Shown: one piece after another, positions 4,304 through 61,287 of the stretch | Layout: each line of letters opens with the position of its first letter | Numbering within the stretch: the first letter of the stretch is position 1 | Assembly: GCA_032622095.1 (NCBI GenBank) | Contig: CP136063.1 | Location: 83,863,980-83,927,979 of the forward strand | Source: Siphonodentalium dalli | Taxonomy: Eukaryota > Mollusca > Scaphopoda > Gadilida > Siphonodentaliidae | Length of the DNA: 64,000 bases | Direction: 5' to 3' | The notes under the pieces: model-generated | Database searches by the model: none | The model's input: only the letters and a program-made list of their open reading frames with translations | What the model was told of the DNA's origin: nothing | Program-made: the position numbers and the translations under genes

Positions 4304-4872
4304 TCTCATATATATTTTGAAGACCTCTGTATGTTTGTTTGTTTGTCTGTCTGTCTGTCTGTCATTTATACAAATCTACGATTCTCGACCGATCGGGACG
4401 AAACTTGGTACGTGTGTGTAGTTTGACCAGGCGGTGAACGTTGTCGTATTGGCGAGCCCGTGCGGCGCCCGCTTCGCGCATGCGCAGGCGAGATCTCGGA
4501 AACGGGTGGAGCTATCGACTTGAAATTTGCTATGTGGATGTATCTTGCCCCGGATGCGAATTTTATCGGGTCGTCGAGCCCGTGCGACGCCAGCTTCGCG
4601 CATGCGCAGACGATATCTCGGAAACTGGTGGAGCTGTCGACTTGAAATTTGGTATGTGAATGTATCTTGCCCCGGATACGAATTTTATTGGGTCGCCGAG
4701 CCCGTGCGACGCCAGCTTCACGCATGCGCAGACGAGATCTCGGAAACGGGTAGAGCGATCGACTTGAAATTTGGTTTTTGAATAGCCCGGACCAGATCTC
4801 GGAAACGGGTGGAGCTATCGACTTGAAATTTGGTTTTTGAATAGCCCGGACAACGTCGGGCTCATCGGCTAG
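4304..4872 (+). mobile_element. Helitron-like element A2
   Basis: A second copy of subfamily A begins TCTCATATATATTTTGAAG after the four bases TCTA that follow B1. It has a (TGTT/TCTG)n microsatellite, GC-rich core units near 4480-4790, the GCCCGGACAACGTCGGGC hairpin and a CTAG end. The units repeat GAGATCTCGGAAACGGGTGG and GCCCCGGAT(A/G)CGAATTTTAT blocks at about 120 bp, with one short unit near 4790. Confidence 0.8.
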
Positions 4873-5378
4873 TCTCATATATATTTTGAAGACCTCTGTC
4901 TGTCTGTTTGTCTGTCTGTCTGTCATTAATACAAATCTACGATTCTCGACCGATCGGGACGAAACTTGGTACGTGTGTGTAGTTTGACCAGGCGGTCGTC
5001 GTTGTCGTATTGGCGAGCCCGTGCGGCGCCCGCTTCGCGCATGCGCAGACGAGATCTCGGAAACGGGTGGAGCTTTCGACTTGAAATTTGCTATGTGAAT
5101 GTACCTTGCCCCGGATACGAATTTTATCGGGTCGCCGAGCCCGTGCGACGCCAGCTTCGCGCATGCGCAGGCGAGATCTCGGAAACGGGTGGAGCTATAT
5201 ATCGACTTGAAATTTGCTATGTGAATGTATCTTGCCCCGGATACGAATTTTATCGGGTCGCCGAGCCAGTGCGACGCCAGCTTCGCGCATGCGCAGACGA
5301 GATCTCGGAAACGGGTAGAGCTATCGACTTGAAATTTGGTTTTTGAATAGCCCGGACAACGTCGGGCTCATCGGCTAG
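4873..5378 (+). mobile_element. Helitron-like element A3
   Basis: It abuts A2: the T after CTAG of A2 is the first base of TCTCATATAT of A3. It has the same (TCTG)n microsatellite, GC-rich core units and the GCCCGGACAACGTCGGGC hairpin 11 nt before CTAG (5375-5378). Apart from unit number it is nearly the same as A2, so the pair is probably recent. Confidence 0.8.
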
Positions 5379-11456: not shown

Positions 11457-11674
11457 TTAAATGTCGATCTGACAGAGGGAGCACATGATGTAGTCGCATT
11501 GCTGACCACACATGCCTTGGCCTTGGTTGTTGCTACTGTAGAGACACATATATAAACACTGCTGATCCCCTCCACTCGGTTCGCCTATAGCCCACAAAGA
11601 GAACGCCAACGGCATCCCGTTTGAGTATTTCCACGAGCCTGCAATTTCGGATCCATCTAGCCAGGTGCCAATGC
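11457..11674 (-). CDS. exon 5: C-terminal half of the CTLD and stop codon
   Basis: The acceptor is TGATTATATTTTAG before GCATTGG; the first two bases complete AGC (Ser280) with exon 4. The 71 residues run to TAA at 11459-11457. They contain TWLDGS (the WIGL-like strand), W.YSNG.PL, W..GEPSGGDQQCLYM and the closing CDYIMCSLC. The usual calcium/sugar motifs EPN or QPD and WND are not present as such: EPS stands at the EPN place and no WND is seen. Canonical mannose- or galactose-type binding is therefore doubtful. Confidence 0.85.
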
Positions 11675-14600
11675 CTAAAATATAATCATTGTGAAATAAT
11701 TACACCCACTTCAGTTTCTTAAGTAAATTCTCATCGAGTCAGGGGAAAAGTACAGGAGACAAGGTTGAAATATATTTTTTTTTTTTATTTTGGGACCACC
11801 ACCCCTCCAACACAAGTTTTTCCAAGGACAATTGGGCACCCACCACAAAGTTTGATGAAAAACGGTGAAAATAGCAGGATAAGGCTGCCAGAGGGTGTGA
11901 AATGTTATTAAATAACCATCCGGATAAAATGCCAAACAGGTAAGCACCAGAAAAATAATTATATAATTTTCCATCTGCACTCTGTTCCATTATCCAATGA
12001 CAAGTAAATGAAGAATGCACTGATAAAATACATGTATTCTTTGCAAATGGCGGAAACACAAGGGCTTGTAACGAACTCGCTGCTCCGACACACCCCACCC
12101 ATCCGCACTACCCTTATACGCCAAACCTTTTCGGAGTGTTTATCCCCCACACACAGACCCAATGAACCATACCTACTAGTATGTGTGTTCCTGCTTTACG
12201 TCGTTGTAGTCTACATTAGACACATATATACTACCATGATGTATAGAGCAGGCACATATGTAGGGACGGTGCATATGGTCATTGGGGCTTTGGAGTGGGG
12301 ATTGGGCTGTAGGTCGCATTACACGCCCGTGCGTCTGGCAGAAACAGTAATTAAGGTCACACATGGTCTGTTATGCACACAGAAGTAGCAGTATAGTATA
12401 GTATTATTTGGCTTACCTTTGTCATTCAAAGTAGCCATTAAAATATTCAATATGTTCTTACACCACATATGGTCACAAAACACTATACGCGGCTTTCGAA
12501 CGTGCATATCACATGGATACACACGCGTGTAAAATACACGAGCGTCACATATATGAAAACACATCAGAACACAAAAAAGCCCCCCTCCGGACATATTACA
12601 CTGTAACTCATGAATCCTGCGGCCGATTGTTGGGAAAGTTTACATATATATTCAGTATATTATGACTGATGAAGTGAGGTGATATATATCCACTGAGAGC
12701 CTTATATGCTTGAGTGAGCACCGTTCACATGAAGGTATAGTGCGTAGTTCAAAAGTAGTTTAAAGACTCAGCTTAGTTCTGCAATTCAAAGTAATTTAAA
12801 GACTCAGCTTAGTTCTGCAATTCAAAAGTAATTTAAAGACTCAGGTTAGTTCTGCAATCCAAAAGTAAGTTAAAGTCTCAGCTTAGTTCTGCAATTCAAA
12901 AGTAATTTAAAGACTCAGGTTAGTACTGCAATCCAAAAGTAAGTTAAAGTCTCAGCTTAGTTCTGCAATTCAAAAGTAATTTAAAGACTCTGCTTAGTTC
13001 TGAAATTCAAAAGTAATTTAAAGACTGATCTTAGTTCTTCAATTCAAAAATGATTTAAAGACTCAGCTTAATTATGCAATTCAAAAGTAGTTTAAAGACT
13101 CATCATAGTTCTGCAATTCAAAAGTAATGTAAAGACTCAGCTTAGCTCTGCAATTCAAAAGTAATTTAAAGACTCAGATTAGTTCTGCAATCCAAAAGTA
13201 ATTTAAAGACTCAGATTAGTTCTGCAGTTCAAACGTAATTTAAAGACCAGCGTAGCTCTGCAATTCAAAAGTAATTTAAAGACTCAGCTTAGTTCTGCAA
13301 TTCAAAAGTAATTTAAAGACTCAGATTAGTTCTGCAATTCAAAAGTAATTTAAAGACTCAGCTTAGTTCTGCAATTCAAAAGTAATTTAAAAACTCAGCT
13401 AAGCTCTGCAATTCAAAAGTAATTCAAAGATTCAGCTTAGTTATGCAGTTCAAACGTAATTTAAAGACCAGCTTAGCTCTGCAATTCAAAAGTAATTTAA
13501 AGACTCAGCTTAGTTCTGAAATTCAAAAGTAATGTAAAGGCTCAGATTAGTTCTGCAATCCAAAAGTAAGTTAAAGTCTCAGCTTAGTTCTGCAATTCAA
13601 AAGTAATTTAAAGACTCAGCTTAGTTCTGTAATGCAAAACTAATTTAAAGACTCAGCTTAGTTCTGCAATTCAAAACTAATTTAAAGACTCAGCTTAGTT
13701 GTTCTGCAATTCAAAAGTAATTTAAAGACTCAGTTTAGTTCTGCATAAAACCCCATGCCACGACGATACTTGGGTCGCCTGACACATTTCGCGACAATAA
13801 TCTTAGGAATGACATATCGTTAAATGATAATATCCACTCTTTTGTAGACTACTCCCTTCCTTTGAAGCCATATGTGCCAAGTCACAATTAAGGAGATTCC
13901 CAACTGTCGTTAACTGAGAATTCTGACATTTGAACATGACCAAATGTCCAGCATACGATAACATATTCCCCTCTTATTCTGTCATTTTGAGATTTTTGGA
14001 AAGTTAACTCTAGCCATTCAACTGGTGTTCATTCAATCATATAACCACTCACAATATTATTAGGTATGAGTTATGTTGGTGATAAAATAAGAAATTATCT
14101 TCCCAACATTTCATCCCATTACTTTTGTTGGGGTGTTTACCTTAAAGTGATACTGTACTCAAATGTTGTTATTTGTTTCTATAGTCTCTGAGTCGTAGAA
14201 GAAGGTAATCAGATTTCCATTATTTGAAAGTCTGTTGAGTACGAAATAATGTTACGGATAGCAGATCAGCCGAATGGGAAAATACAAATTGTCGTTGTCG
14301 AGTAATATTTGTACAGTTTTCAAGCAAATGTATCAAATAAATATTATGTTACATGCATACTAGTCCCATATTCTCATTTAAGTTATTGTATAGTCACTAA
14401 TCAGTGAGTGGTTTGAGTTAACGCCACGTATCTACATATTTTAACACGATCGTGTGTGCTATGCGATGCCCAATCCACTGTCCTCAATTAATTTGATTAC
14501 GTCTTCAACACAGAAATTCGTAATTTAATTTATAGCAAATAATTAACTTTGATTTTAAGATGACCCATTAACCTGGACGTTTACAGAATACATCTTCGAC

Positions 14601-17600
14601 TCAAATTACTTATTTTTCTATAGGTTATCGATATTAGGTCGTTATTAACTGGAATTTATTGAAAATGGCGTACAGTACCCCTTTAACAGTATCCACACGT
14701 GTAATTTATTACTTACTTGATCCATCATAGGATACACACGAGGAAAGCGAGCCTACCACAAGAGCTGCGTCCCATGTAGCCGCGTCGTCTACCCTCAGGA
14801 GGTGCCCACCTTCACTCTGACATATAGTTTGGGCAACTGGTTGGCTGTGATATGTTGCTTCTAGTCTGATGCAAATTTCTTTGCTGCCAGCAGCCTTCAA
14901 CATGTAGTTTGTGGGACAGTCTGAACAATGTTAATAAGAATGTATCATAATGTGTGTATATATAAACAGACGACAAACCGGAAGTCAAAGATCACCTGGC
15001 ACTATTTCCTGTTAGGTAACGAACGTTTCATATCACAATTTATAGAATGGGTTCATTGAATGGAATAAGAGTAGGATCATGTAATAAATAACTGTTTGAC
15101 CAGGGGGGGGGGGGTCGCGCAAAAAATTCCGACACAAGGCCGGGGGGTGGGGGTCGCAGCTCCTGAAAAACATGTTTTTCCTTTTGCCCTTTTTTGACCT
15201 AATTACAATCTGTTTAGCCTATATAATGATTGTTTTGACGTGTTATGATCTAAATAACACATGTAGTGTACACACAGTATACTAGGTACATTTCCCTGTG
15301 GTCAGGTTGGTCCCTTCTAATACTTAGTAAACATTCGTAAAATAAAATATCACATTACCACTGTCTGTGGTATCAAACTGAAATTCAACTCTCCAAGTCT
15401 GATATGAAACTTAAATAATGTGTAAAATAAATGTAGAACATGCCTGTTCTCTAATCTATAAACACGTTTCTGGCACAAAGTTACTAATACTATAAAAGAC
15501 AAAAGTGCTATTCTACAGTGTTACATATCCAATTATTAATGAACAGACATTCACATGGATCTCAATCAGTCTCAATAGCATTTTCTTAGTAAAACATGAC
15601 TGTCTTTCACTTGTGAAACAATGAGATATTATTTATTTATATGCGCTATTCTACAACCATTTAGTTATTGTTAATATTAAAATGATCCATCTAACCACGT
15701 ACACGGCATATTGTAAAACAGGCAAGAAACAGTTTGATAAGTGTCTAGTCTGAAATACTTGGGTAATTTTGTGCCAGAAAATGTAATCAAAGTTTCTTGT
15801 TAATCTCATTCATGTCTTAATCCAGATTAGATAAAGATTTTGTAAGTCACTTTGCACAACGATAATTGAATCTTCACCTGAGTTTAAATTAACTTAAATA
15901 ATTCTTCAATCAGCTTCAACGTTTTTCAAAATTCAATTTAGAAATGTCAGTTGAACGACATCGATGATAAAATGAAAATGAATATATCTGATACATTTTG
16001 CATAGAAAGTCACTGCTACATCTGACTCCATTAAATCCAATAAGATTGGCGTGGATCGTTCATAGGAAACTATATTAATACCACCAGTCAAAACACTTAT
16101 AAGGACACACGTCCAATGGAAATATATAGGATATACACTTTATGAAATACCGCATAACAAAAAGAGCTGAACTCTCAACACAAGCAATACACTCAAATGA
16201 GATTTAAAACATTTATCTAGAAAACCCCATCTCAGCCTGGGCAGCATATAATTTTCCGGTGTGTTGTGTGTTTACAACTTCACTTTAACTAGCAACTTTA
16301 AAAATATATATAAAGTAAACACGAGTGCATTTCATGGATAAATGCACATTACACAAAGTCCAGTGCAAAGTCTGGAATAAATAATTAGATAAAATAATTA
16401 TTTTTTAAAAGTTGTTTCACTGGTTGTGTCAGCTGGTTGTTTTGAGTTTTTCATGATAAATGTTTTTAATCTCATGAGTGTATTGCTTGTGCTCATAGTT
16501 ATAATTTATTAGTATTTGAGTTCAACTGTTGGCGAAAGTACACCAAAGTTGGATGATGCTGGAAAAAACAGAATGGTCAAATTACGAATGACTGATAATT
16601 ATTATATATGTTCATTCTAATTTAACCATTCTCTGTTTCTCAACACCAGCCACCTTCACTGGACATTCTACACCCTGATGTGTTTGCCTATAATGGCTCT
16701 CCAGCTTGATAAATTTCATTCAAATGTGACTGGAAAGGGGGGGGGTCCCAAAATCATGATGGAAAAAAAAAATTGCACAAAAAGGGGGGGGGGGGGTCGG
16801 GTCCAAAATGCTGCAAAAAAATTTTCAGCGTTGTGTGTGCAAATTGTTTCCTGGCCCCCCTAGTTTGACTGGAAATAATTAGCCAAAGAGCGGGCTGAAC
16901 CTTTTTTTCTTCGATAAAGCCGCTGTGCGTTGAAGTTTTGGGTTCTCGTCACTGCGTAGGAACTGTAACACTGGAAGTCATTCTATTGCCGGTTTGAGAT
17001 GATTTAGGAATGATTTGTTTCTTCTGATTAATATTTTTTTTTATCCATTTGTTTGAAAATTATATTAATTTTCCCATTCCACTCACAAAGAACGTGATAA
17101 TAGCGAAAACTCTCTTGTGTGAGTTATAGCAACGACGAATACCGCTCATTTTGATGTACGTGTGGGTTCTATATCTCAATCGAGTCTGTGCTGTTCCAAT
17201 TTAATAGGTTCTATTCGGCAAATACTATTGACCAATATTTGGAAGGATACTTGGAGCAAACTGACCATGACGTGAAAACAACCAAGTGAACACAAAAAGT
17301 TGAAAGCTGCACCACTTCTCACCCACTTAGGCGATGTTTGCGTTACCTTGCTATGCATTATAGCAGGGCGGCTAAGTGTCAGATGTAATTGTGCATTTCG
17401 TGATATAATCATAACATTTGGCTTCAATGGTGCCTGTGATGTACTGAACATTTTTCGGACAAACCAATCAGAATGATCGACAGATTCAAAATGACCGCCA
17501 TTTCAAATTGTGCCCTTTGTTTTCACATGAGTTCAGTAAATCACAAGAATAAGATAAGCAGTTATAGCCATGCGAAACTAAGTCCAGTTTATCCAATAAT

Positions 17601-20600
17601 GATCAATATTTTCTTATATTTATACTTAAAATGTATCAACAATGGTCGAAACGATAACAATTTGGCATGAGTGATCAGAATAAAATACTGAAGACAGTTT
17701 TCCTACCAACCTGTCAGAATGGTAGACAGATTTAAGATGACCGCTATTTTTTCAAAACAGCCACTATTTTCAGCTTGTAACATCTATTATATAATTTTTG
17801 GAAGATCTGTCTGTGTGTCTGTGTGTGTGTGTCTGTCTGTTTCCAATGGACTCGAAAACGGCCGAGCCGATTTCGATGAAACTTGCTATGTGGGGGTATT
17901 TTCGGCCGGGGAGTGACATAGGCCTATTAATTTGCCCGTGCGACGTTACCTTGACCTTGAAATCGGGTCATTTCAAGGTCAAACGCACGAATATCACGGG
18001 ATTTTGATGAAACTTGGTATGTGGGGGTACTTTCGTATGGGGAGTCTCAAAAGCCTATTCATTTGCCCGTGCGACGTGACATTGACCTTGAAATCGGGTC
18101 AATTCAAGGTCAAATCGCGAATTTTGATGGGATTTCGACGAAATTTGATACGTAGGGTTACTTTTGTCCACTGAGTGTATTGGACGGGTCGAGTCGTGAC
18201 CCCGACCTGACCTCGACCTTCAAAATGATCAATTCGAGGTCAAATCGGGTAAAACTGGATGGATTTCGACGGGCACGTTTGTCGGGTACTTTTGTCCGGG
18301 CAGTGTTTTGGACTGGCCAAATCGTGACCCCACTTGACCTTGACATTCAAAATGGACAATTCAAGGTCAAAGCCCGGACGAAGTCGGGTCACCTTCTAGT
18401 CTATACTATATATTTTGAGACTTCCGTATATATATATGTGTGTACTTTATAGAATCGAAAACGACTGCACCCATCGAGCTAATATTTCGTATATAAGTTT
18501 TAAAACCCACAGACACCGCCGTGGTCGCGTTTTGGAGAAGCTCAGAGCACCGTTTCTCCCTTCCCAATCATCAAAATCACCGCAATCGGCACTTCGGGGT
18601 TAATAGCGTTGATATATAAAGAGCGTTCGTTTTCCACAGTGTCTATATAAAGAGCGTCGTTTTCGCTATCTACTTATCTGTATGACGGGAGTCTGATTGT
18701 AGCCTGTGGCTCGAAATATTATGCAGAGAGATTTCACGGCTGAAAGCGTTTGTTTTCAATTCAATGCAATGTTATCGCTCGAAATTATCGCTCGAGAGAT
18801 TTCACGACATTAGGACGGGTACGGCAGACTCGAAATATTATGCAGAGAGATTTCACGACGGGAAGCGTTTGTTTTCAATTCAATGCAATGTTATCGTAGA
18901 GAGATTTCACGACGGGAAGCGTTTGTTTTCAATGCAATGTTATCGCTCGAAATATTAGACGGGAAGCGTTTGTTTTCAATTCAATGCAATGTTATCGTAG
19001 AGAGATTTCACGACGGGAAGCGTTTGTTTTCAATGCAATGCAATGTTATCATTCGAAATATTATGCAGAGAGATTTCATGACATTAGGACGGGTACGGGC
19101 AGGTTAAAAAAAAGAAAAACAAAGAAAGCGTTGTCTGTCGTTCCTAGGAAGGGTGGATTTCATAGGGTAAATTTTTCCGCCAGAAACAAAAAAATTAATT
19201 AAAACAATTTAAAATTAAAAAAATTTAAAAATTAAAAAACAATTAAAAAAAATGTCATGTTTCTCACCAACTGCTAGTATAATATATATCAACACTTTAT
19301 TTTTTTTTTACTAATTACAATGCTTCAGAAATGATCGAAACGGAAACAAAATCATTCACTTTTTTGATACAACCATAAACCTTGGCACGGATAGATGATC
19401 TGGGTATGCACAGTACATCAACGTGTTTTCGACCAGCCAAGAAACATGACCATCTCATTCATGATGGCCGCTATTACACAATCGGTTGTTATTTGCATAT
19501 TTTGCTCAACATATTAGATTATACTAAAAAGTTTATTGGTTTTTGGTTTTTCAAAGCAGTTGATGAAGTCGCAATAATAAGAAAAGGTGATTATTAAAAT
19601 ATATGCAGTTAACCAGCGGAGAGATCTGCGTGCCCTACTTTAAAATAATGGAGGATTAAGAGAGCCTTCATGGATTGGAAGTTCTTCGTTTCCAGTGCAA
19701 CATAACCGGTTGTTCCACCTAGGATGGAAGTGTTTGCAGGATCCCCCATGTTTGGTATCCCTGGATGATTCGGTGTGTGCACATGAAAATTCAGTGGATG
19801 GTTAAATAAATGTATTCGTTAGCAGATAATCAATGCAAATGTTCGAGGAATGCCGTCATGGTTACACTGGTGTAAATGTTTGCCATAGGCCTCAATGCTA
19901 ACGTTTTCGTGTATGCTGTTGGCTATATAAATATTGGGTCCAAATATTTTTTTTAATCTGAAAAATTGATATTTGGGGAAACCTTTTAGACAAAAAAAAT
20001 CATGTCTGTCTAGCAGGGAATTCGCCTTTAAATCTTGTGTTTTCGTAACTAGTGCCAGATCCGCATAAAAAATACTGTCATATTTTAGACCACACCAAAA
20101 AATTCAAACTTCACTACAAAGGGTTAATTCCTGTGCCAATGGCTATTTTACCTGTGGGAAATCATAGGGAAGAGGTGTGATGATTTTTTTATGCAAAAAG
20201 CACACAAGGCTATTGACCAATCAGGGCCCAGTGTCTTTTTATTCTCTCCTATATATTCCTCCCACATCCGCTAGATGTCACTCGGAACCTTATTTACACC
20301 AGTGTAACCTAAAGTGCGGCAGTAATTCCTGAAAAAATATATATAGGCATGTATGTTATCCGATCAGCGTCTGTTGAGCAGTCATTTGAAGGAGGTAGCA
20401 GGTATCCATCAATTCTGCACAGATATGTGCCTAGTGTTCGGTGTGGAATGGCAGCGGTATTCTGGAGATAAAATGTGCTTGTGCTTGGCGTTCTGTAACG
20501 TTATGACGTTCTGTGCCGAGATATGGGTCACTGTTGACCAGTATAAATCGAGTATTCGGCATAATGTGTTGCCAGGTAGAGCCGTTAAGCGGTCGTTCTG

Positions 20601-53600: not shown

Positions 53601-56600
53601 ACCGTAGAGTCGGTTGGATGAGGCACTCGCCGACCTGTAGCCACGTTGCTCTCATGCACAAACACCTTGTATATAAGGAGAAAGTGTTCACCATGCAGTT
53701 GGAAATTTCATATGTGACACAATAGTACACCACACATGGGTTGAAATTGTTCTGGTAGTCTGATTTTCCAACCTGTAATGCATGTCGAATTTGTTGTTTT
53801 AGACCAACATTTGCATCTCTTCCTACTTTTGGTCAAAATATTGGTTTGAAATTTCCTCTAGGTCCCTCCCACCCTGGTGTCCAGTCAAAATTCACGTAAA
53901 AAAACACATGGCATGTGAGGTACCGAGTCGGAAATTCAAAGGCCATGGGGAGGGGTGCAAATTGATTATGTGATGTTGAGAGTTTGGTCTGGTTCAATGG
54001 GGGGGGGGGGGGGTGCAGTTGAAAACCCCACATGGATTGACGGAAACCATCTATAGATATACGCCTCTATATATTCATATAATACTTCAGCGATTCTGTC
54101 AACCCATCCAAAATGGAATTACGAGGTCAGTTGTTGAGACAGACGATACAATTGATGGATCATAAGGCCCGTTCCAAACGACGGATTTTTGTCGACTCGA
54201 ATCTAATACCAGACCCACAATTGTATTAAATGCGTCAAAAATGCGACGTTTGAAACAATTAGATCCGTGTCAGACGCATCACAGACGAATCTCCGTCCAA
54301 TTCAGACGAATCTTCGTCGGTGATGCGTCTGAAATCCGTCTTGGTTTCAAACGACGGATTTTTGACGACTCGAATCTAATACATGTGACGAGAAGAGCCG
54401 AAAGTTGCCGAAGAACGAATGCAAATGATATGATAATGATATGATAATGGTATAATAATGAGGGGGCTCCCCTTATCTGAGGAAATACCCACATGACGTC
54501 ATTTGTCGCACGCTCTCTTTGTCCTAAAGAAAGATATATCTATAAGCATTGCTTATGTAACATTGTGCAAATTGTAATTATTTTGGTAGTTTGATTCCTC
54601 AACGAACATGGCATGTCACTGACTCACATCTTATAATGGATATAGTATCAATGTTTTAGAATAATCCATATATACCGGTATAAGGGGTAGGGGTTGTAGC
54701 AACTGATTTATAATAATTCATATAGACCGATATTCCTTATTGTAAGGAGTAGGGGTGGTAGTCTCTGATGTATACTAATTAATATTTACCGGTATTACTT
54801 ATTATAAGGGGCAGGGGTGGTACCACTGATTTATAATAATTCATATATACTGATATTACTTATTATGAGGGTAAATGGGTGGTAACCTCTTATTTATAAT
54901 AATTCATATATTCAGGTATTACTTGTTATAAGGGGCAGAGTGGTAGCCTATGATTTATAATAATTTATATATACCGGTATTCCTTATTATAAGGGGTAGG
55001 GGTGGTAGCCTCAGATTTATAATAATTCATATAAACCGGTATTACTTATTATGAGGGATAGGGATGGTAGCCTATATATGATTTATAATAATTCATAGAT
55101 ACCGGTATTCCTTATTATAAAGGATATATAGGTGGTAGCCTATGATTTATAATATATAATTAATATATTCCGGTATTCCTCATTATAAGGGGTAGGCGTG
55201 GTACCACTGATCTTATTTATAATAATTCATATATACCGGCATTACTTATTATGAGGGGTATAGGGGTGGTAACCTCTTATTTATAATAATTCATATATTC
55301 GGGTATTCCTTATTATAAGGGTAGGGGTGGTAGTCTCTGATTTATAATAATTATTGTATACCTGTATTTACATGCATGGTATACACATATATGGCAATTG
55401 GTTGCACGATCTAACATTTATTTGAAGCGCCTATTATATTATATTATATAACTATATGTACTAGAGCTGAAACGGTTGACCCATTCTTCTAACCGGTTAA
55501 CCATCGGGGTTAACCGGATTTCAACCGGTTAACCGCTAAATTTCTAGCGGACTTCTCTCACACTAATTATGTCGACATTATGCCATGCTCCAGGGACAAA
55601 CCTAGGTGAGAAGTAGTAGCTGAAATAAAGACCTTATTCACGGCATTTAACGATATTCAAAAACACGTATTCCTTGTTCTTTTGCTGGCTCTCGTGATGG
55701 GGAATGAGCAAGTGAAATTTGTGAATGGCAGGAGAGATCGCTTATTTGCCGTGATTAGCATATGTTTGGGCATTTGTAAAACGAGTAAAATAGTATGGGT
55801 ATTGGTAAAACGAGTAACAAAACTATATATTAAAGATCTGTAATATATAATTATCATCATTGGTATATCCTCCAATGCATTATATATAAAGACAAGAAAG
55901 TAATAACTAGAGAACAAAAAGGAAGGTCAGTTAGGTCAGACTCGCCGTCCTATTCAGTATTCGAGCTATTCGTCGGTATCATGATAGCGGACACTAGTGT
56001 TGGGAGGTTATATAATTTACGTTTCGGTTTCGGTTTCGGTTTCGGTTTTAGCATGCAATCACTTAACATATAGCAATTACTGCCAAATTGAGTGTTAATT
56101 AGTCCCACAGGCACAACCAGTTACAGAGTAGCATGGAGCATCAATTTCCTTGATAAAAGGGAAGATTATCGAAGAAGTTTTGGGTTGCTTCAACTACGAT
56201 GTCTGTTTGAGTCAGTAAATCACAACACGGAGGAAGAACGGGAAGATTGAAGACATTGTGCAGCTGATCTCAATCTTCAAACTTTGTCGACTTACATAGT
56301 TTTTATAAACCCCACTGTAAAACAGTTTTATATATAGTATGTCGTGGTGTGGTTCCAATTTGAATCCATGTTGCTTCGTGCAGTATTAACTATTAAGTTA
56401 CGAAAGCACGCATTGCCGCACAACGTCACTTTTACGTTGTCACTTCCTTGTGTGCATTGAGTCCATTTCAGACTTGATACACAGTGACTGCACACGTGCT
56501 TTTGTCGGAAGAAAACTTCAAAGGGTCGGAATTGATTGAAGGTCGCCGACACTTCCAGACAGTTCGAGAATTGCTACTAAGTATCTGATACTACCCCGTG

Positions 56601-59600
56601 TACCAATTAATGCTTGCATTGCACTCTACTATCGGTGACACGGGATTTAGTATTAGTTTTGCATCATTTAACCTAATATTTTGAGGATTATTCACGTTCA
56701 CATTCAACTGACAACGGGATGCGGTTACGTCCGGTTCATTTTTTTCTAACCGGTTACGTCGCTAACCGGATGCTAACCGGTTAACCGTCTAACCGTTTCA
56801 GCTCTAATATGTACTATATACATCCTCATATACATATGCACATATATTCGCGCTGCAATCGCGCATATATTTATACATAATTTATACTGTATTTTAGTAT
56901 ATATATGTATAACATACCGGTATATATAGGCCTCTATATCTACGCGTGACCATTTTGTGATGGTAACATGGAGTGCATAAATCGACCGATGTATTAGATT
57001 CGACGCGACAAAGATGCGTCCGTCTGAAACAAAATTGGCCGCAGACGCATCACCGACGGATTTAATACAATTAGATTCGAGTCGACTAAAATACAGTATA
57101 TAAATTATGTATAAATATATGCGTGCTTGCAGCGCGAATATATGTGCATATGTATATGAGGATGTTTATAGTACATATAGTTATATAATATAATATAATA
57201 AAATATAAAAGGCGCTACAAATAAATGTTAGATCGTGCATCCAATTGCCATATATGTGTATACCATGCATGTAAATACAGGTATACAAGAATAATTATTA
57301 TAAATCAGAGACTACCACCCCTACCCTTATAATAAGGAATACCGGAATATATGAATTATTATAAATAAGATGTTACCACCCCTATACCCCTCATAATAAG
57401 TAATACCGGTATATATGAATTATTATAAATAAGATCAGTGGTACCACCCCTACCCCTTATAATGAGGAATACCGGAATATATTAATTATAAATTATAAAT
57501 CATAGGCTACCACCTATATATCCTTTATAATAAGGAATACCGGTATCTATGAATTATTATAAATCATAGGCTACCATCCCTACCCCTCATACTAAGTAAT
57601 ACCGGTTTTTATGAATTATTATTAATCTGAGGCTACCACCCCTACCCCTTATAATAAGGAATACCGGTATATATAAATTATTATAAATCATAGGCTACCA
57701 CTCTGCCCCTTATAACAAGTAATACCTGAATATATGAATTATTATAAATAAGAGGTTACCACCCCTTTACCCCTCATAATAAGTAATATCGGTATATATG
57801 AATTATTATAATTCAGAAGTACCACCTCTGCCCCTTATAATAAGTAATACCAGTAAATATATTAATTATTATACATCAGAGACTACCACCCCTATTCCTT
57901 AAAATAAGGAATATCGGTTTATATGAATTATTATAAATCAGTTGCTACAACCCCTACCCCTTATACCGGTATATATGGATTATTCTAAAACATTGATACT
58001 ATATCCATTATAAGATGTGAGTCAGTGACATGCCATGTTTGTTGAGGAATCAAACTACCCAAATAATTACAATTTGCACAATGTTACCTAAGCTATGCTT
58101 ATAGATATATCTTTCTTTATGACAAAGAGAGCGTGCGACAAATGACGTCATGTGGGTATTTTCTCAGATAAGGGGAGCCCCCTCATTATTATACCATTAT
58201 CATATCATTATCATATCATTTGCATTCGTTCTTCGGCAACTTTCGGCTCTTCTCGTCACATGTATTAGATTCGAATCGTCAAAAATCCGTCGTTTGAAAC
58301 CAAGACGGATTTCAGACGCATCACCGACGAAGATTCGTCTGAATTGGACGGAGATTCGTCTGTGATGCGTCTGACACGGATCTAATTGTTTCAAACGTCG
58401 CATTTTTGACGCATTTAATACAATTGTGGGTCTGGTATTAGATTCGAGTCGACAAAAATCCGTCGTTTGGAACGGGCCTCAGAGATTATTTTACGGATAC
58501 CGATGACCACAAATCAAGGTGAACACAATCGTATTACACACAGGCGACAACATACCCGTTCAATGCCTCCATCGGATATCTTCCTGTAGTATTTTTTTAA
58601 TTGGTCATGTAAGTTACATGGGGCATACCTGATATTTTCTTGCCCGGCATGTGTACGCGCCATAAGGGTCAGATGTACGTTTTGACCAAAATTTCCTGGT
58701 AATTCTAAATGGATTTTCTCAAAATCTGTAAGGAATTTATTTGTGAAATTTGGTACAAGCGATTATTGTGATACAATATTTAAGAACACTAGAACAATCG
58801 GTTGATATCAACTCATTTACTTCACTTTTATGGCATGGAAATTATTTAAAATGTCAACGTTTTCGGTACCAAGAACTTCTGTAAATTAGATTTGTTTCAA
58901 AAGTGCACTCCATATATCGATTATATCATATCTGGATACCATGAGAGGAGACTTAATTTTTCTTGATTCATGAAATTTTATGATTATTTTCACTTAGAAA
59001 CAGGGGGGGGGTGAAAAAAATATTCCGGCACGTATGCCGGGGTGGGTGGGTGGTCAAAGCCACCAACAAGCAATTTTTTCCGCAACTAACCGTTGTATTT
59101 TGTTGCAAATTTTGAAATCCAAGATGACCGCTGGCAGCCATGTTTTTTTGGCCGAATGACCTCAAAATGACTCATTCCAATTTACATGTCCATGTTAACA
59201 TCCATGATAAATAGTATGCACAGAAATTCAGCTGTTTGCAGTGAATTTCCCCCCCCGCAAATCTCTGTTTTAGTGTTAAAAGGGGGTGGGTGTAAAAAAA
59301 TGGTCGGAAAAAACTGCCGAAAACGGAAAAAAAATTGGCAGTGGGGGTGGGTGGGTACAAAAAATGATCGAAAGGGAAAAAATGCCATACGTGCCTGAAA
59401 TTTTTTTCCGACCCCCCCCCCCCCCCCCTGTTAGAAAGACAACTACCCACAAATAATTTTCTATATTTGAGAATTTTCATGTCATTCATGTTGTTCAATG
59501 ACAAATTTGGCTGAGATGAGTTATGGGTCATGGCTTCATAACCAAGTTAAAGCTGACCACCATATCTTTTAACACTGTGGCATAATTTCTAGTTGATTAT

Positions 59601-61287
59601 GCATGCACTGCTTTATTCATCATCGTAATATATGGGGGTATGACACTATATTATGCAATTAAAAAGGTAACTCCACATAATGATACAAATGAAGCCTCCT
59701 CTGATGGAGCCAAGGCAATACGCTGTTTGGTGATTGGAGTGTTGTGTGAAACTATTAATTATTCTAGCAGTTCTTGGTACCGAAAGGGACAACAAAGAAA
59801 ATAATATGTTCAACCTCTCAAATGTATTAAAATCCATTGTTTTTGTCACCTCTTAATAATTGCTCAGATTCTGCAAACAATGAAAATGATGATATGTGGC
59901 CCTTTTGTCTGCCTCTCTCACATTTTGATGTTTTTGTTTTGTTTTTAGATTGAGCTCAATTCAATAGAACATAATGTTTTGTAATTAAATTTGTTGTTTC
60001 AGATCAGCACTCTTAAAAAATTAACACCGTTATAACATTCGCCCCAGGAGACTGGCAGAAAAAGTGCGAACATACAGACAGATCCTACTCTCCTGGTCCT
60101 GCGGTCCCTTTGTGCGTTAGGGGCCATTAAAAACTTTGTGAGCTTCGCGCATATTTTGGTCTTAGACGGGCTCCCCGATTAAAAACAAATAATATTAGAT
60201 TAGTTTAAATTGTTTTTAATTGAATTTTTAATTTTTTATATAGATTTAAATAACATTTAAATTTAAAGATACTTGGATGACGTGCGCTCCACATCTTATA
60301 ATATTCGCTTTCTAATTTTCCCCGGTATCCAAATAGGTCGATAAATACTTGATCTACCTTCCTACGAGCATGCTATGTCATTTCTACGAGCATTGGAGTC
60401 ATAAAAATACAATTTTGAATACGATGTTTGGGTCCCAAAAAAAAAACAAACATTTGCACGGCATGGAACAGAAAAGATCGTTCTGCGTTAATCTATTGCT
60501 GATATTGTAGAAATAAAGTAGCGTTTGTTACACCTGTGCGAACAATTTAAAATAGCGGGAAAATGGCGGTAACCATAAACAGTATTTTTCAGAGCATATC
60601 AAGCCGGTATGTCAAGAGTTCGTGTGTTTGTCACCCTATCGCATACCTTCTTCCAAATTACGGTGGCAGAATATGGAAGCTCGAATGAGCCTTGTCCGGT
60701 TGATAAAAAAAATTTAAGTTAAATTTTTGTTTTGTTTAAATCAAAAGATTTGATAAACGATCGCCGTTATAACATGATTTACATCCGCAGGGGTACCAGA
60801 TTTGCCGTATCAAATTTGGTAAAAAAATCCGGAACAGGCGTACAGATAGACAGACATATCCTACTATTTTATATAGAGGAGGTTCGGATGAACTGCATGG
60901 GAGACTATATATATGTGAAGTAACTGCCTGCTTGGTATACGTGGATCAAGTCAATATAGATTGCGAAAATACTTCCAAATGTGAACTTACCTTCTGTATG
61001 AAGATGCTACTAGAATTTTGGATAAGTTCAGCTTTTGGGTCCTCTATCCATGTAGATGACATGTCACACTGGCCTGTGTCCTTGATATACAGAGATGAAA
61101 CACACTGATCCCTATTGGAACACTCTGCACCACACTCCAGGGAGCTCCTGGCTATGGTCGAATCCAGAAATCCGTCATCCGCTGTGTAAAATGCTCGGTT
61201 CTTCGTTTGTTTGAAATGCACGGCGTTCATGGAAACTGTTCCTACTATGAACATCAGAAACACAATGGCTGCCGACAGTTTATTCAT
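11457..61287 (-). CDS. secreted PAN-PAN-EGF-CTLD protein, five-exon gene (351 aa, 49.8 kb)
   Basis: Five minus-strand exons join to 1056 coding bases: 61287-60991, 43000-42755, 33386-33296, 14920-14717, 11674-11457. Each intron starts GT(A/G)AG and ends with a pyrimidine tract and AG; phases 0, 0, 1, 1 fit at every junction without a frame break. The protein has a signal peptide (residues 1-20), two PAN/apple-like modules (about 22-99 and 100-181), a four-cysteine EGF-like module (185-208) and a CTLD (213-351). N-glycosylation sequons lie at N91, N108 and N165. These modules are known for extracellular protein or sugar binding, so a secreted recognition or matrix role is inferred. The ligand is unknown. 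Extra exons in the long introns cannot be excluded. I do not recognise a named orthologue. Confidence 0.8.
11675..12744. other. intron 4, no gene seen
   Basis: Intronic sequence between exon 5 and the minisatellite. It has a T-rich run and a CCACCACCCCTCC stretch near 11775-11815. Short frames on both strands show no domain, and no transposon termini were recognised. Confidence 0.5.
12745..13745. repeat. 37-bp minisatellite, about 27 units
   Basis: The unit is 37 bp: TTCAAAAGTAATTTAAAGAC followed by TCAGCTTAGTTCTGCAA. It repeats head to tail with point differences (GCTTAG/GATTAG/GCGTAG, GTAAG for GTAAT) and occasional one-base indels. It begins near TGCGTAG and ends at TTCTGCATAAAACC. It lies in the last intron of the CTLD gene. 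Confidence 0.9.
13746..14141. other. intron 4, no gene seen
   Basis: Unremarkable AT-rich intron sequence between the minisatellite and a TTAA MITE. Confidence 0.5.
14142..14686. mobile_element. TTAA MITE, family 2, copy 1
   Basis: Terminal inverted repeats TTAAAGTGATACTGTAC and GTACAGTACCCCTTTAA bound 545 bp. TTAA at both ends fits the target choice of piggyBac-like elements. A second, shorter relative lies at 41022-41301. No coding sequence is present. It ends 30 bp from the donor of exon 4. Confidence 0.65.
14717..14920 (-). CDS. exon 4: N-terminal half of the C-type lectin-like domain
   Basis: The exon follows TTAACATTGTTCAG and ends TCAA|GTAAGT; 204 bp, two bases, 67 codons and one base (phase 1). 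It begins CPTNYML.. and has C213, C228 and C245 with the CTLD pattern of a first-strand cysteine pair and A..IC.SEGGHLLRVDDAATWDAAL, the alpha-helix/beta region seen in CTLDs. A further cysteine, C273, lies near the end. A TTAA MITE (14142-14686) sits only 30 bp beyond the donor. Confidence 0.85.
14921..16734. other. intron 3, no gene seen
   Basis: AT-rich intron. Near 15100-15160 is a G-rich patch (GACCAGGGGGGG...GGTCGCGC and GGCCGGGGGGTGGGGGTCGC) that resembles termini of the poly-G MITEs at 16735 and 59001, possibly a truncated relative. Confidence 0.4.
16735..16865. mobile_element. 131-bp hAT-type nano-MITE
   Basis: A block starting AAGGGGGGGGG and ending CCCCCCTAGTT is flanked on both sides by the 8-bp duplication TGACTGGA (16727-16734 and 16866-16873). 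Eight-base duplications are the hAT hallmark. The inside is G- and A-rich low complexity with no coding potential. Confidence 0.65.
16874..17782. repeat. intron 3 with a diverged ~246-bp direct repeat
   Basis: AATGATCGACAGATTCAAAA near 17471 and AATGGTAGACAGATTTAAGA near 17717 begin matching blocks that include ATGACCGC(C/T)ATTT, about 246 bp apart. Otherwise nothing recognisable. The stretch ends at the A (17782) used as target by Helitron B2. Confidence 0.45.
17783..18399 (+). mobile_element. Helitron-like element B2
   Basis: It starts TCTATTATATAATTTTTGG after A17782 and ends with hairpin CCCGGAC-GAA-GTCGGG, a 12-nt tail and CTAG (18396-18399). A (TGTC)n microsatellite follows the 5' end. 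At 617 bp it looks like the basic subfamily B form without the module seen in B1. It carries six perfect TCAAGGTCA/TGACCTTGA motifs (17952, 17973, 18083, 18104, 18335, 18361), some paired as hairpins. Confidence 0.8.
18400..19277 (+). mobile_element. Helitron-like element C6, 3' hairpin lost
   Basis: It is joined head-to-tail to B2. It has the subfamily C 5' block, a (TA)n/(TG)n microsatellite and GAGCTAATATTTCGTATATAA. About 18710-19110 holds three to five irregular repeats of GACGGGAAGCGTTTGTTTTC with CGAAATATTATGCAGAGAG. An A-rich tract follows. The end reads TTTCTCACCAACTGCTAG: the CGCCAGTGGCGGGC hairpin present in C1-C5 is missing, as if deleted between two short repeats. Confidence 0.7.
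19278..19859. other. intron 3, no gene seen
   Basis: AT-rich intron between Helitron C6 and the inverted-repeat element at 19860. No coding or repeat signal beyond a T run near 19300. Confidence 0.4.
19860..20309. mobile_element. MITE-like element with 18-bp perfect inverted ends
   Basis: GGTTACACTGGTGTAAAT (19860-19877) is exactly inverted at 20292-20309. Similar sequence extends outside both copies (AGGAAT...GCCG), so the real ends may lie 10-20 bp further out. No target-site duplication was settled and no coding sequence lies inside. Confidence 0.55.
20310..20889. other. intron 3, no gene seen
   Basis: A 102-codon plus-strand frame (20353-20661) and overlapping minus frames show no domain and no convincing splice sites, so they are treated as chance. 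Confidence 0.4.
20890..21810. repeat. degenerate ~150-170-bp satellite, six units
   Basis: The marker AGATGGGA(G/A)C recurs near 20904, 21063, 21221, 21390, 21541 and 21690. Each unit also carries AAAACATGGCCGCCAGCAGC followed by CATCTTGGAT in some form. Two unit types occur: one continues TTTCAAATTTGAATCCATCG with GCAGCCCGCAT (units 1, 4, 6), the other with a TTTACTCTTTGCATGACTAA-like stretch (units 2, 3, 5). Confidence 0.75.
21811..22449. other. intron 3, no gene seen
   Basis: AT-rich sequence with short frames only; no repeat or domain recognised. Confidence 0.45.
22450..23640 (-). pseudogene. decayed LINE ORF1 (gag-like, zinc knuckles)
   Basis: On the minus strand the best part, about 23040-22783, reads VLNSLRCFKCQGYG, then GHNHKDC, then IRCSNCQGSHPA followed by EFKIQ. 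This is the triple CCHC knuckle region of ORF1 proteins of Jockey/CR1-type LINEs. The first knuckle has Pro where His is expected, stop codons interrupt the frame on both sides, and a Pro/Ser-rich tail (PPAPEPAP) follows. The copy is inactive. It sits in intron 3 in the same direction as the host gene. Confidence 0.6.
23641..24110 (-). mobile_element. probable 5' UTR of the LINE whose ORF1 lies at 22450-23640
   Basis: Read on the minus strand this GC-richer stretch (GGGCCCGGGTAGAATAGG, then GCACCCTGTTTGCC and GGGCCCCGGTGGTACTAGGG) lies directly upstream of the ORF1 remnant. Part of it, ATGCAGTGGCTAAACGAGT with ACCGCTTCA, recurs near 32636-32664 on the plus strand, showing it is a dispersed repeat. 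The 5' UTR label is inferred from position. Confidence 0.45.
24111..24731. other. intron 3, no gene seen
   Basis: No repeat termini or domain. It contains AAGATGGCGCCCAACACGG near 24208 and two A-rich CGGCAAAAAAA runs near 24590. Confidence 0.4.
24732..24826 (+). CDS. candidate first coding exon on the plus strand, unknown product
   Basis: ATG at 24732 opens 31 codons plus two bases ending at a strong donor, CAACAA|GTAAGT. The peptide (MDNVKGKRWVALGNKVTQKT then SSSPAEVNEYN) has an ordinary protein-like composition and no repeats. No downstream exon could be placed with confidence, because a repeat-filled element begins at 25062. It could be the first exon of a nested gene, of a decayed transposase gene, or chance. 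Confidence 0.25.
25075..25560. repeat. GGTACTCTGGAGTACC palindromic tandem repeat
   Basis: The 16-base near-palindrome GGTACTCTGGAGTACC, usually followed by AAAAGT or AAAAGTTTA, occurs about ten times with variants. Each unit can fold on itself and the tract as a whole can form many alternative hairpins. Confidence 0.8.
25900..27120. repeat. 240-300-bp degenerate satellite with GCGATAAATCGC hairpins
   Basis: The marker GGTCTGAGTGAACAACCTAT and the following CTAAAATAGACCGATC recur near 25902, 26166, 26409, 26710 and 27000. Between them lie many TTTGCGATAAATC(G/A)CAAAC blocks on both strands that can pair with one another. Units are diverged, with indels. Confidence 0.7.
28438..28570. repeat. 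two-unit repeat with CACGTG palindromes
   Basis: Two ~67-bp units each contain CACGTGATGCCATCACGTG, a perfect 9-bp inverted repeat around one base, giving four CACGTG E-box cores in about 90 bp, with GGTACCGAGATCG / GGTTCCGAGAG flanks. Confidence 0.7.
28755..28827. repeat. two adjacent perfect hairpins
   Basis: ACTGACTAGATAC (28755-28767) pairs with GTATCTAGTCAGT (28783-28795), a 13-bp stem. One base later AACAACGTTCTC (28797-28808) pairs with GAGAACGTTGTT (28816-28827), a 12-bp stem with a 7-nt loop. Neither is followed by a T run. Confidence 0.75.
28828..31309. other. intron 3, no gene seen
   Basis: Contains a poly-C run near 30128 and, at about 30300-30660, TTTCCAACT-rich sequence that loosely resembles the outer palindrome arm near 47370-47720. 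A 61-codon minus frame at 29145-29330 reads like protein but has no domain or splice support. Confidence 0.4.
31310..31370. repeat. 26-bp perfect inverted repeat with 9-nt loop
   Basis: 31310-31335 (TACATCTTATGCC...) is exactly inverted at 31345-31370, with CTAGTCTAC between. It is a strong cruciform candidate. No target duplication or larger element is obvious. Confidence 0.85.
31371..31902. other. intron 3, no gene seen
   Basis: AT-rich intron between the cruciform and a foldback element; a GC-richer patch near 31800-31900 has no recognised meaning. Confidence 0.4.
31903..32317. mobile_element. ~415-bp foldback MITE
   Basis: About 145 bp at each end are inverted copies: left TTAGGGCACGTTCATACACT, right AGTGTATGAACGTACCCTTA, continuing through GTTTGCAGGCATTTC(A/G)TC, AATATGAACGGAAACATGC and ACATGAGAAGTAAA. 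The middle is unique. It has no coding capacity; the superfamily is not settled. Confidence 0.75.
32318..33295. other. intron 3 with a LINE 5' UTR-like fragment at 32605-32690
   Basis: The 29 bases at 32636-32664 (ATGCAGTGGCTAAA..., ending ACCGCTTCA) match the inverse of 23640-23668 with two differences, so a fragment of the same dispersed repeat lies here on the plus strand. The rest shows nothing recognisable. Confidence 0.45.
33296..33386 (-). CDS. exon 3: short EGF-like module
   Basis: A 91-bp exon lies between CTATACCCACAG and CAA|GTGAGT. It starts in phase 0 and leaves one base (A) that completes AAC, Asn212, with exon 4. The 30 residues read FFCLNGG...KICAC...FIGDHCE: the CxNGG, CxC and GxxCE signature of the second half of an EGF domain with four cysteines (C185, C197, C199, C208). 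A full EGF domain has six, so this is a reduced EGF-like fold. It is too short for ordinary ORF finding. Confidence 0.8.
33387..33783. other. intron 2 start, no gene seen
   Basis: Intron next to exon 3, with a short (AAT)n run near 33675-33700. Confidence 0.4.
33784..34457. mobile_element. foldback element with ~135-bp inverted ends
   Basis: 33784-33921 (TGCGGACACACGTATCACAG...GTAGGTGTGACAATTTATTA...CACAATGAGTC) is inverted at about 34323-34457 with roughly 15-20% differences. About 400 bp of unique sequence lies between. No target duplication was found. Confidence 0.7.
34458..35969. other. intron 2, no gene seen
   Basis: AT-rich intron with no recognised repeat or coding signal. Confidence 0.45.
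35970..37010. repeat. diverged tandem duplication of ~0.5-0.6 kb
   Basis: Blocks recur in the same order: GAGAATAATTA(G/T)CCAG near 36031 and 36613, CCTGGACATT(T/G)CTTTA near 36067 and 36650, GATTTATACATCTCTA near 36127 and 36727, CCACGT(C/A)GACT near 36231 and 36871. The offset drifts from about 580 to 640 bp through indels. Confidence 0.7.
37011..38329. other. intron 2, no gene seen
   Basis: AT-rich intron without recognised features. Confidence 0.45.
38330..39640. repeat. very degenerate ~35-37-bp minisatellite
   Basis: Variants of (G/A)TCCATGG..TACATATATGTG(G)CCTGG recur at roughly 34-37-bp steps, for example near 38666, 38700, 38870, 38944, 39018 and 39051. Decay is advanced, so edges and copy number are approximate. 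Confidence 0.55.
39680..40200. repeat. ~170-bp satellite, three units
   Basis: CATAATATCAGT recurs near 39804, 39979 and 40143, each time followed within 50 bp by a T-rich stretch, GGGT and CCTAGCAACCG or CCTGGCAACAG. Spacing is 165-175 bp. Confidence 0.7.
40201..41021. other. intron 2, no gene seen
   Basis: No recognised coding or repeat signal; an 86-codon minus frame at 40140-40400 overlaps the end of the ~170-bp satellite and is not taken as real. Confidence 0.4.
41022..41301. mobile_element. MITE, TTAA family 2, copy 2, with internal foldback
   Basis: Left end TTAGGTGCTACTGTACATTA, right end GTGTACAGTACCCCTTTAA. The termini match copy 1 at 14142-14686, with the left TTAA decayed to TTAG. 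Inside, 41067-41117 (GCTATGTGAACGATGCAAAC...) is inverted at about 41131-41182 (...GTTTGCATCGTTCATAGAGC), a stem of over 40 bp. Confidence 0.6.
41302..41811. other. intron 2, no gene seen
   Basis: No recognised features. Confidence 0.4.
41812..41912. repeat. ~43-bp stem inverted repeat
   Basis: 41812-41855 (GTTGACTATGCC...CCTCGAGGAGG...) is inverted at 41869-41912 with about one mismatch and a 13-nt loop. The stem itself contains the palindrome CCTCGAGG. Confidence 0.8.
41913..42754. other. intron 2, no gene seen
   Basis: It holds small hairpins (GGAAGTTATAAATAACTTCC near 42207) and GCAGCCAATCAGAATGCGAG near 42517, a MITE-terminus-like phrase without a partner. Confidence 0.35.
42755..43000 (-). 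CDS. exon 2: second PAN/apple-like module
   Basis: The acceptor is TTTTTTCCTTATGCAG before ACAGAC and the donor is AAAAAA|GTGAGC; 82 codons, phase 0 at both ends, so the exon could be duplicated or skipped without a frameshift. It encodes a linker TDIETPPMNETDD, then four cysteines (C134, C138, C144, C156) with the same spacing style as exon 1 (SCERRC.....C...........KC), a KWIKN segment matching the WIEDP region of exon 1, and sequons at N108 and N165. Matching phase and cysteine pattern suggest exons 1 and 2 arose by module duplication. Confidence 0.8.
43001..45635. other. intron 1, no gene seen
   Basis: AT-rich intron 5' of exon 2 in gene direction. Frames at 43312-43808 and 44973-45260 show no domain. 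The latter contains TTTGGCGGCCATTTTGG and GCCATTTTGGACGCCATGTT, like the satellite in the outer palindrome. Confidence 0.4.
45636..45740. repeat. 27-bp arm inverted repeat
   Basis: ACGTGAAATAATTCATGAG... (45636-45662) is inverted at 45714-45740 (...CATTAATTATTTCACGT) with few mismatches. Between them ACACTCGAGCGC...GCTCTCGTGT forms a second imperfect stem. Confidence 0.7.
45741..46530. other. intron 1, no gene seen
   Basis: Contains a (TGG)n run near 46104-46122. The 94-codon frame across it has no domain. Confidence 0.4.
46699..47200. mobile_element. TTAA MITE, family 1, copy 1
   Basis: TTAAAGACACGG... and ...CCGCACGTGCCTTTAA bound 502 bp. The interior (GTCAAAAACCGCCACAAACA, ATAAACAGTATGTTAT, ATAAAGAGCGTT) matches copy 2 at 61924-62421. 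The right palindrome arm shows the unoccupied site near 58485-58497, so this insertion came after the inverted duplication. Confidence 0.8.
48087..48462. mobile_element. ~376-bp near-perfect foldback
   Basis: GGTTGTTTACCGGACGCAAT at the left is inverted as ATTGCGTCCGGTAAACAACC at the right, and the arms stay complementary up to the centre CATGTGAACGCACCAT/AATGGTGCGCTCACATG near 48271. The right half contains a further palindrome GCAAGAAAATATCAG...CTGATATTTTCTTGC. It is flanked by TATA-like duplication and is absent from the other palindrome arm near 53545. Confidence 0.8.
48590..49700. repeat. ~170-bp satellite with AAGATGGCGGC boxes
   Basis: Boxes of the type CAA(A/G)ATGGCGGCC(A)AAATGG occur near 48602, 48771, 49136, 49311, 49484 and 49648, 164-182 bp apart or a multiple of that. 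The mirror copy lies at about 52330-53410 in the other arm. Chance frames rich in SNMAAKMAA come from these boxes. Confidence 0.75.
50691..51219. other. centre of the outer palindrome
   Basis: About 0.5 kb where inverted pairing between the arms can no longer be followed by eye. No coding signal. Confidence 0.5.
54700..55380. repeat. ~64-bp minisatellite in the inner left arm
   Basis: About ten units of GGGGTAGGGGTGGTAGCCTC then TGATTTATAATAATTCATAT and ATACCGGTATTACTTATTAT, spaced 62-70 bp. The mirror copy runs from 57290 to 57980 in the other arm with nearly the same unit order. Confidence 0.85.
55462..56806. mobile_element. 1345-bp non-autonomous hAT element
   Basis: Terminal inverted repeats TAGAGCTGAAACGG and CCGTTTCAGCTCTA are flanked by a perfect 8-bp duplication ATATGTAC (55454-55461 and 56807-56814). 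The subterminal regions are dense in AACCGGTTAACCGG. The right arm of the inner foldback has the empty site with a single ATATGTAC near 57170. Inside are a (CGGTTT)n run near 56025 and no intact transposase frame. Confidence 0.88.
57290..57980. repeat. ~64-bp minisatellite in the inner right arm (mirror copy)
   Basis: Inverted counterpart of 54700-55380: units of AGGCTACCACCCCTACCCC, TTATAATAAGGAATACCGG and TATATATGAATTATTATAAA. Confidence 0.85.
58666..59000. other. intron 1, no gene seen
   Basis: AT-rich intron between the outer palindrome and a poly-G MITE. Confidence 0.4.
59001..59430. mobile_element. 430-bp hAT-like MITE with poly-G ends
   Basis: It begins CAGGGGGGGG and ends CCCCCCCCTG, with further inverted pairing: AAAAAATATTCCGGCACGTATG on the left against the inverse of CATACGTGCCTGAAATTTTTTT on the right. 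TTAGAAA lies directly outside both ends (58994-59000, 59431-59437), a 7-bp duplication. CAGGGG starts are usual for hAT elements. The inside has G-rich runs that could form G-quadruplexes. Confidence 0.7.
59438..60990. other. intron 1, no gene seen
   Basis: Two stretches share wording: TTAACACCGTTATAACATTCG...ACAGACAGATCCTACT near 60020-60095 and GATCGCCGTTATAACATG...ATAGACAGACATATCCTACT near 60760-60865, probably related dispersed repeat ends. No coding signal. Confidence 0.4.
60991..61287 (-). CDS. exon 1: signal peptide and first PAN/apple-like module
   Basis: The exon starts with ATG at 61287 and runs 99 codons to AAG|GTAAGT, phase 0. Residues 1-20 are a classic signal peptide: Asn-Lys after the Met, then a hydrophobic core AAIVFLMFIVG. 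The mature part has four cysteines (C52, C56, C62, C74) in the LECGAEC....QC..........GQC pattern of PAN/apple domains, with a WIEDP segment after the last one and a sequon NSS at N91. The ATG is preceded on its strand by TATAAATA only a few bases away, too close to be its TATA box; a non-coding upstream exon is possible. Confidence 0.82.

Follow-up and report, generated by a model that had tools for sequence, protein, structure and literature searches.

The 64,000-nucleotide stretch of Siphonodentalium dalli DNA analysed here (the window, C3:83863980-83927979, in a genome of 2,226,750,531 bases and 9 contigs) raises the question whether five short exons scattered among repeats belong to one gene and, if so, what kind of protein that gene encodes. 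Read on the minus strand, exon 1 (61287-60991, 297 bp) opens with the ATG, encodes a signal-like N-terminus and the first PAN domain and ends in phase 0 before a GTAAGT donor, and exon 2 (43000-42755, 246 bp, phase 0 to 0) carries the second PAN domain between a CAG acceptor and a GTGAGC donor. Exon 3 (33386-33296, 91 bp, phase 0 to 1, donor GTGAGT) encodes a four-cysteine EGF-like half module, and exons 4 (14920-14717, 204 bp, phase 1 to 1, donor GTAAGT) and 5 (11674-11457, 218 bp) each encode part of a CTLD, the last base of the TAA being 11457. The four introns on this strand are of 17,990 bp (intron 1, 43001-60990, containing large inverted repeats and tandem arrays of a 62-bp unit), 9,368 bp (intron 2, 33387-42754), 18,375 bp (intron 3, 14921-33295) and 3,042 bp (intron 4, 11675-14716, with a tandem array of 27 37-bp units inside), and AG stands at the acceptor of every one.

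When recomputed from the DNA, the joined coding sequence is 1056 bp, that is 351 amino acids plus TAA, with exon end phases 0,0,1,1 and then the stop, no internal stop or frameshift and good splice sites throughout. The sequence-only reading had given the same number of exons (one of them 91 bp), phases, GT-AG borders and length, and the same outer ends at 61287 (the ATG) and 11457. A gene that is 98% intron and includes a 91-bp exon was read correctly from raw sequence. Neither AATAAA nor ATTAAA occurs in the 1.4 kb 3' of the stop, and the gene may have a 5' non-coding exon or alternative splicing.

The joined protein was compared with Pfam, a check that had been proposed along with the gene model and could have refuted it, and two PAN_1 domains (PF00024) followed by one Lectin_C domain (PF00059) were recovered, in the order that had been predicted. 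PAN_1 is found with an E of 9.4e-10 for the protein, its first domain covering residues 25-90, and each PAN exon taken alone exceeds the gathering cut-off of 21.4 bits (25.4 bits for exon 1; 30.9 bits, E 2.5e-07, for exon 2). Lectin_C scores 22.6 bits in the window protein, exactly equal to its cut-off of 22.6 and the lowest value among the three copies scored (the window copy and the paralogues C and E described below). The domain is clear in C and E, at 45.3 and 38.8 bits (E 1.6e-11 and 1.7e-9), and these strong scores remove most of the doubt that the threshold score of the window protein leaves. NCBIfam returned 0 families, and an AlphaFold model of exon 2 alone, with a mean pLDDT of 57, was too poor for use. 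Among PDB sequences the best match to the whole protein is codakine (PDB 2vuv, 1.9e-6); searched with the CTLD alone, the yolk sac IgY receptor chain reaches 1.3e-7, a value summed over six weak stretches, and codakine 4.7e-7. Hydropathy indicates a signal-like N-terminus at about residues 1-20, and after residue 30 the highest 19-residue mean is 1.21, too low for a membrane span; three N-glycosylation sequons are present.

An EGF-like domain contains six cysteines in three disulfides. The window protein has four cysteines in each PAN exon, four in the 91-bp exon and ten in the CTLD exons, and the eight PAN-type cysteines pointed out from the sequence alone are kept by all five full copies of the gene known from this genome. 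The EGF-like module that had been named with them stands only in part: the 91-bp exon is there and encodes four cysteines in all five full copies, but it has neither the six cysteines of an EGF domain nor a score above any Pfam cut-off. No Pfam EGF match was obtained in the window protein or paralogue C, and in paralogue E both EGF_2 (E 0.093) and EGF_Teneurin (E 0.046) fall under the cut-off. Its four cysteines resemble the last four of an EGF module, and it is called a half-EGF below. After the signal peptide, copies C, D and E contain 21 cysteines each, an odd number, so that one would stay free for an inter-chain bond.

Genome searches with the window exons as queries, at E up to 0.001, returned at least 89 matches to exon 1 (150 of 272 candidates scored), 63 to exon 2 (all 117 candidates scored), at least 49 to exon 4 (150 of 183) and at least 33 to exon 5 (150 of 340). 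Mollusc haemocyanin (PF14830), the one phylum marker looked for, gave no match in a search that lacked a positive control. Four full five-exon paralogues were identified, B at C3:83.44 Mb, C at C8:6.46 Mb, D at C8:24.63 Mb and E at C8:24.54 Mb, each with the exons in order on one strand and an open frame of 346-352 amino acids, in loci of 18-56 kb. In these and the window copy (A) all 20 introns are GT-AG and show the same phases 0,0,1,1, the EGF exon measures exactly 91 bp in all five, and the exon-1 protein of the window is 61-80% identical to those of the four full paralogues. Because four paralogous loci repeat the same five exons in the same order, strand and phases, the exons of the window are more than a chance assemblage, and a chance joining, incompatible with a design common to five loci, was ruled out. 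The earlier prediction of a single gene is likewise backed by these four intact paralogues, with their identical exon order and phases.

Besides the five intact five-exon copies, the family includes six loci at which PAN exons and one or more lectin exons lie in order, with exon 1 containing stops at two of the six. Copy F (C8:24.50-24.53 Mb) retains the full ordered set of five exons, yet it is broken, exon 1 containing a stop and exon 2 being interrupted; copy G (C8:24.72-24.77 Mb) has exons 1-4, exon 5 not being found in the 4.9 kb beyond exon 4. Copy H (C4:272.95 Mb) shows exons 1, 4 and 5 and no exon-2 match, copy J (C8:117.4 Mb) exons 1, 2 and 4, and copy I (C8:22.84-22.89 Mb) exons 2-4 in the stretch examined, with an exon 3 that reads as 88 bp and an exon-1 match containing a stop. 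F and I were excluded from the trees and selection tests. The region C8:24.50-24.77 Mb is a tandem cluster of four copies on one strand (F, E, D and G), which are the most alike of those compared.

When C serves as outgroup, the lineage of the window copy shows a depletion of nonsynonymous change both in the PAN half (32 of 418 nonsynonymous against 23 of 125 synonymous sites; pN/pS 0.42, p 0.0011) and in the CTLD half (39 of 301 against 23 of 80; pN/pS 0.45, p 0.0018), and this depletion in both halves makes the copy look like a gene retained under purifying selection. On the B lineage the depletion is seen in the PAN half (p 0.0007) and is not significant in the CTLD half (p 0.12). Of the two halves, the lectin one changes more quickly. 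Between the window copy and B, amino-acid identity is 75% in the PAN half and 47% in the CTLD half, and the ratio of nonsynonymous to synonymous counts is higher in the CTLD half in all 21 pairs of seven copies (A-E, G and H, with exon 4 alone as the CTLD of G and exon 1 alone as the PAN of H), significantly so (p < 0.05) in 10 of the 21, although the pairs are non-independent and there is partial saturation at synonymous sites. D and E, the most recent of the full pairs, have a dN/dS of 0.41 in the PAN half, 1.57 in the CTLD half and 1.62 in exon 5 taken alone; the difference between the halves has p 0.038 in one of 21 tests. Counter to the general trend, C compared with D and with E shows CTLD identities of 59 and 64% against 54% for PAN.

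Unequal divergence of the two halves also bears on whether they share one history, or whether PAN platforms and CTLD heads have been swapped or converted among paralogues in a recombining modular family, the window gene then being a mosaic. Synonymous divergence hints at such an exchange, since the window copy and B differ by a pS of 0.392 in the PAN half and 0.651 in the CTLD half (permutation p 0.0012), and the difference runs in the opposite sense between C and D (0.572 against 0.416, p 0.052) and between C and G (0.568 against 0.322, p 0.015, the CTLD of G being exon 4 alone). Joint tests gave p 0.00025 for A-B against C-D and p 0.00135 for A-B against C-E, but p 0.058 for a third, B-C against C-D, and the pairs were picked after the pairwise divergences were known. 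Taken singly, moreover, only 2 of 21 pairs show a pS difference between halves below p 0.05, and approximately-unbiased tests on trees of eight copies (A-E, G and H, with J serving as the outgroup) do not reject either arrangement, whether for the PAN or for the CTLD half (p 0.19 to 0.81, eight trees). Nor do blocks of common intron sequence point to a swap between the window copy and B, which have in common four exons and, in intron 3, a single stretch of 100 bp at 72%. Half-swapping, hinted at by the synonymous divergence and unsupported by the tree tests, is therefore a lead only, and we regard a mosaic origin of the window gene as unlikely. Rather unlikely too is a fuller version, a germline family whose PAN pair is steadier, is under purifying selection and carries fast-diverging CTLD heads that are exchanged between paralogues and bind without a classical calcium site; if true, it would amount to a modular recognition repertoire built on PAN domains, as against the immunoglobulin domains of snail CREPs and FREPs.

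It could also be supposed that the window copy is in decay, or has recently become a pseudogene, and no longer functions as a lectin, given that its Lectin_C score only reaches the threshold, that its CTLD branch is the longest apart from the outgroup and that the sister copy F at C8:24.50-24.53 Mb is visibly broken. It has further lost a PAN cysteine kept by the ten other exon-1 sequences compared (residue 94, in exon 1, is a serine). Against this stand the 1056 bp free of stops and frameshifts, the good splice sites and the depletion of nonsynonymous changes in both halves on its own lineage, and we judge decay of this copy decidedly improbable.

The linkage of PAN and lectin exons was followed by chaining the 20 best of the 89 exon-1 matches, the 19 best of the 63 exon-2 matches and every exon-4 and exon-5 match, with 69 weaker exon-1 and 44 weaker exon-2 matches left out. 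Of the 20 best exon-1 matches, 19 are followed on their own strand, at most 50 kb downstream, by an exon-2 match, with none on the opposite strand; two of the 20 also have a same-strand match upstream. For the best 19 exon-2 matches, exon 4 is found within 40 kb in 10 and exon 5 within 60 kb in 7, at least one lectin exon lies beside 11, and matches to the lectin exons are absent from the opposite strand and occur upstream once for each exon. A lectin part is consequently not seen with every PAN pair, as 9 of the 19 have no exon 4 within 40 kb and 12 no exon 5 within 60 kb, and at the remaining exon-2 loci it may be too diverged for the search to pick up, or truly missing. That the window holds a PAN-PAN gene next to an independent CTLD gene, two transcription units joined by eye, is highly improbable, for although the introns are 3-18 kb long and 9 of the best 19 exon-2 matches lack an exon-4-like match within 40 kb downstream, all five exons recur in order with matching phases at five loci on two contigs, and the exon-3/exon-4 junction is in phase 1, and the end of exon 2 and start of exon 3 in phase 0, in five out of five.

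We consider it probable that the window contains a real and intact animal gene from an expanded PAN-PAN-(half-EGF)-CTLD family with a role in secreted recognition, its exon structure, conserved splice positions, purifying selection and PAN and CTLD homology being established. It is a true gene, though of a generally familiar kind, as the same genome holds other copies of the same build. PAN modules are protein- and sugar-contact domains, and CTLDs are ligand-binding heads. As the best reading, the product is most likely a secreted lectin for recognition whose head is non-classical, a member of this expanded family. The window protein would be secreted, the steadier PAN pair could act as a platform for docking or multimerisation, and the CTLD at the C-terminus could be the variable head that recognises a ligand, either a glycan or another surface molecule. 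Judging from related families, the recognition task might be innate defence, symbiosis or another, and the role may lie among defence, symbiosis, reproduction and shell formation. With a lectin head that changes fast and a PAN base that is steadier, the family could be tested as a recognition repertoire.

Known lectins offer several points of comparison. Codakine, a bivalve single-CTLD lectin that is a close PDB sequence match to the window CTLD, is reported to keep both EPN and WND (PMC12842671), whereas in the aligned window CTLD the EPN is replaced by EPS and WND is absent. The classical calcium-dependent sugar-binding motif (EPN or QPD with a WND-type motif) is thus lacking from the window CTLD, and EPN, QPD and WND are all absent from the five aligned paralogue exon-5 sequences. 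Because the EPN and WND motifs are missing, the CTLD probably binds its ligand in a mode other than the classical calcium/EPN-WND one; the text of PMC12842671 describes bivalve CTLs that lack functional classical motifs and have no strict need of calcium.

As in the window gene, CTLDs are combined with other modules in lineage-specific families among the multi-domain C-type lectin-like proteins of bivalves, where expanded CTL families and bivalve-specific domain orders are described (PMC10140915), and among the CLECT proteins with an Apple-like domain reported from the snail Biomphalaria pfeifferi (PMC10075465). The window gene places two PAN domains and a half-EGF before one CTLD, and the snail account speaks of "an Apple-like domain", its text giving neither order nor number (PMC10075465). 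The CREPs (IgSF plus CTLD) and FREPs of snails, gene families proposed to act in defence, likewise carry a lectin-type head behind another N-terminal module (PMC10075465, PMC10875847). They differ from the window protein, which has no match to an immunoglobulin-type Pfam family at E up to 10, and so lacks what would place it among the CREPs, and in which the N-terminal module is a pair of PAN domains. Rotifer EGF-CTLD secretory lectins resemble the window protein in having an EGF-like module directly before the CTLD, but their module is reported as an EGF domain, PAN goes unmentioned in the text, and the window module has four cysteines; the same text calls the combination of a single EGF with a CTL domain previously undescribed in Lophotrochozoa (PMC8878817). 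The order PAN-PAN-EGF-CTLD is not named in the open-licence literature searched, which includes PMC10075465, PMC12205514, PMC10140915, PMC6836662, PMC12842671, PMC10875847, PMC8878817 and PMC8194122.

The remainder of the window is rich in repeats. One large inverted repeat in intron 1 (48498-49577 and 52436-53514) has arms 95-96% complementary in two blocks, which carry repeat-derived ORFs of 101-162 amino acids. A second large one (54165-55368 and 57290-58479) is 98% complementary over its longest blocks, each arm containing some 11 tandem copies of a 62-bp unit. The 37-bp unit of intron 4 is repeated 27 times at 12748-13745, and arrays of 122-126-bp units lie downstream of the gene at 2592-3035, 4453-4783 and 5014-5338, where they yield long ORFs on both strands. 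The longest ORF of the window, of 329 amino acids at 50-1039, has no Pfam match and resembles the 3' end of a LINE with a zinc-knuckle.
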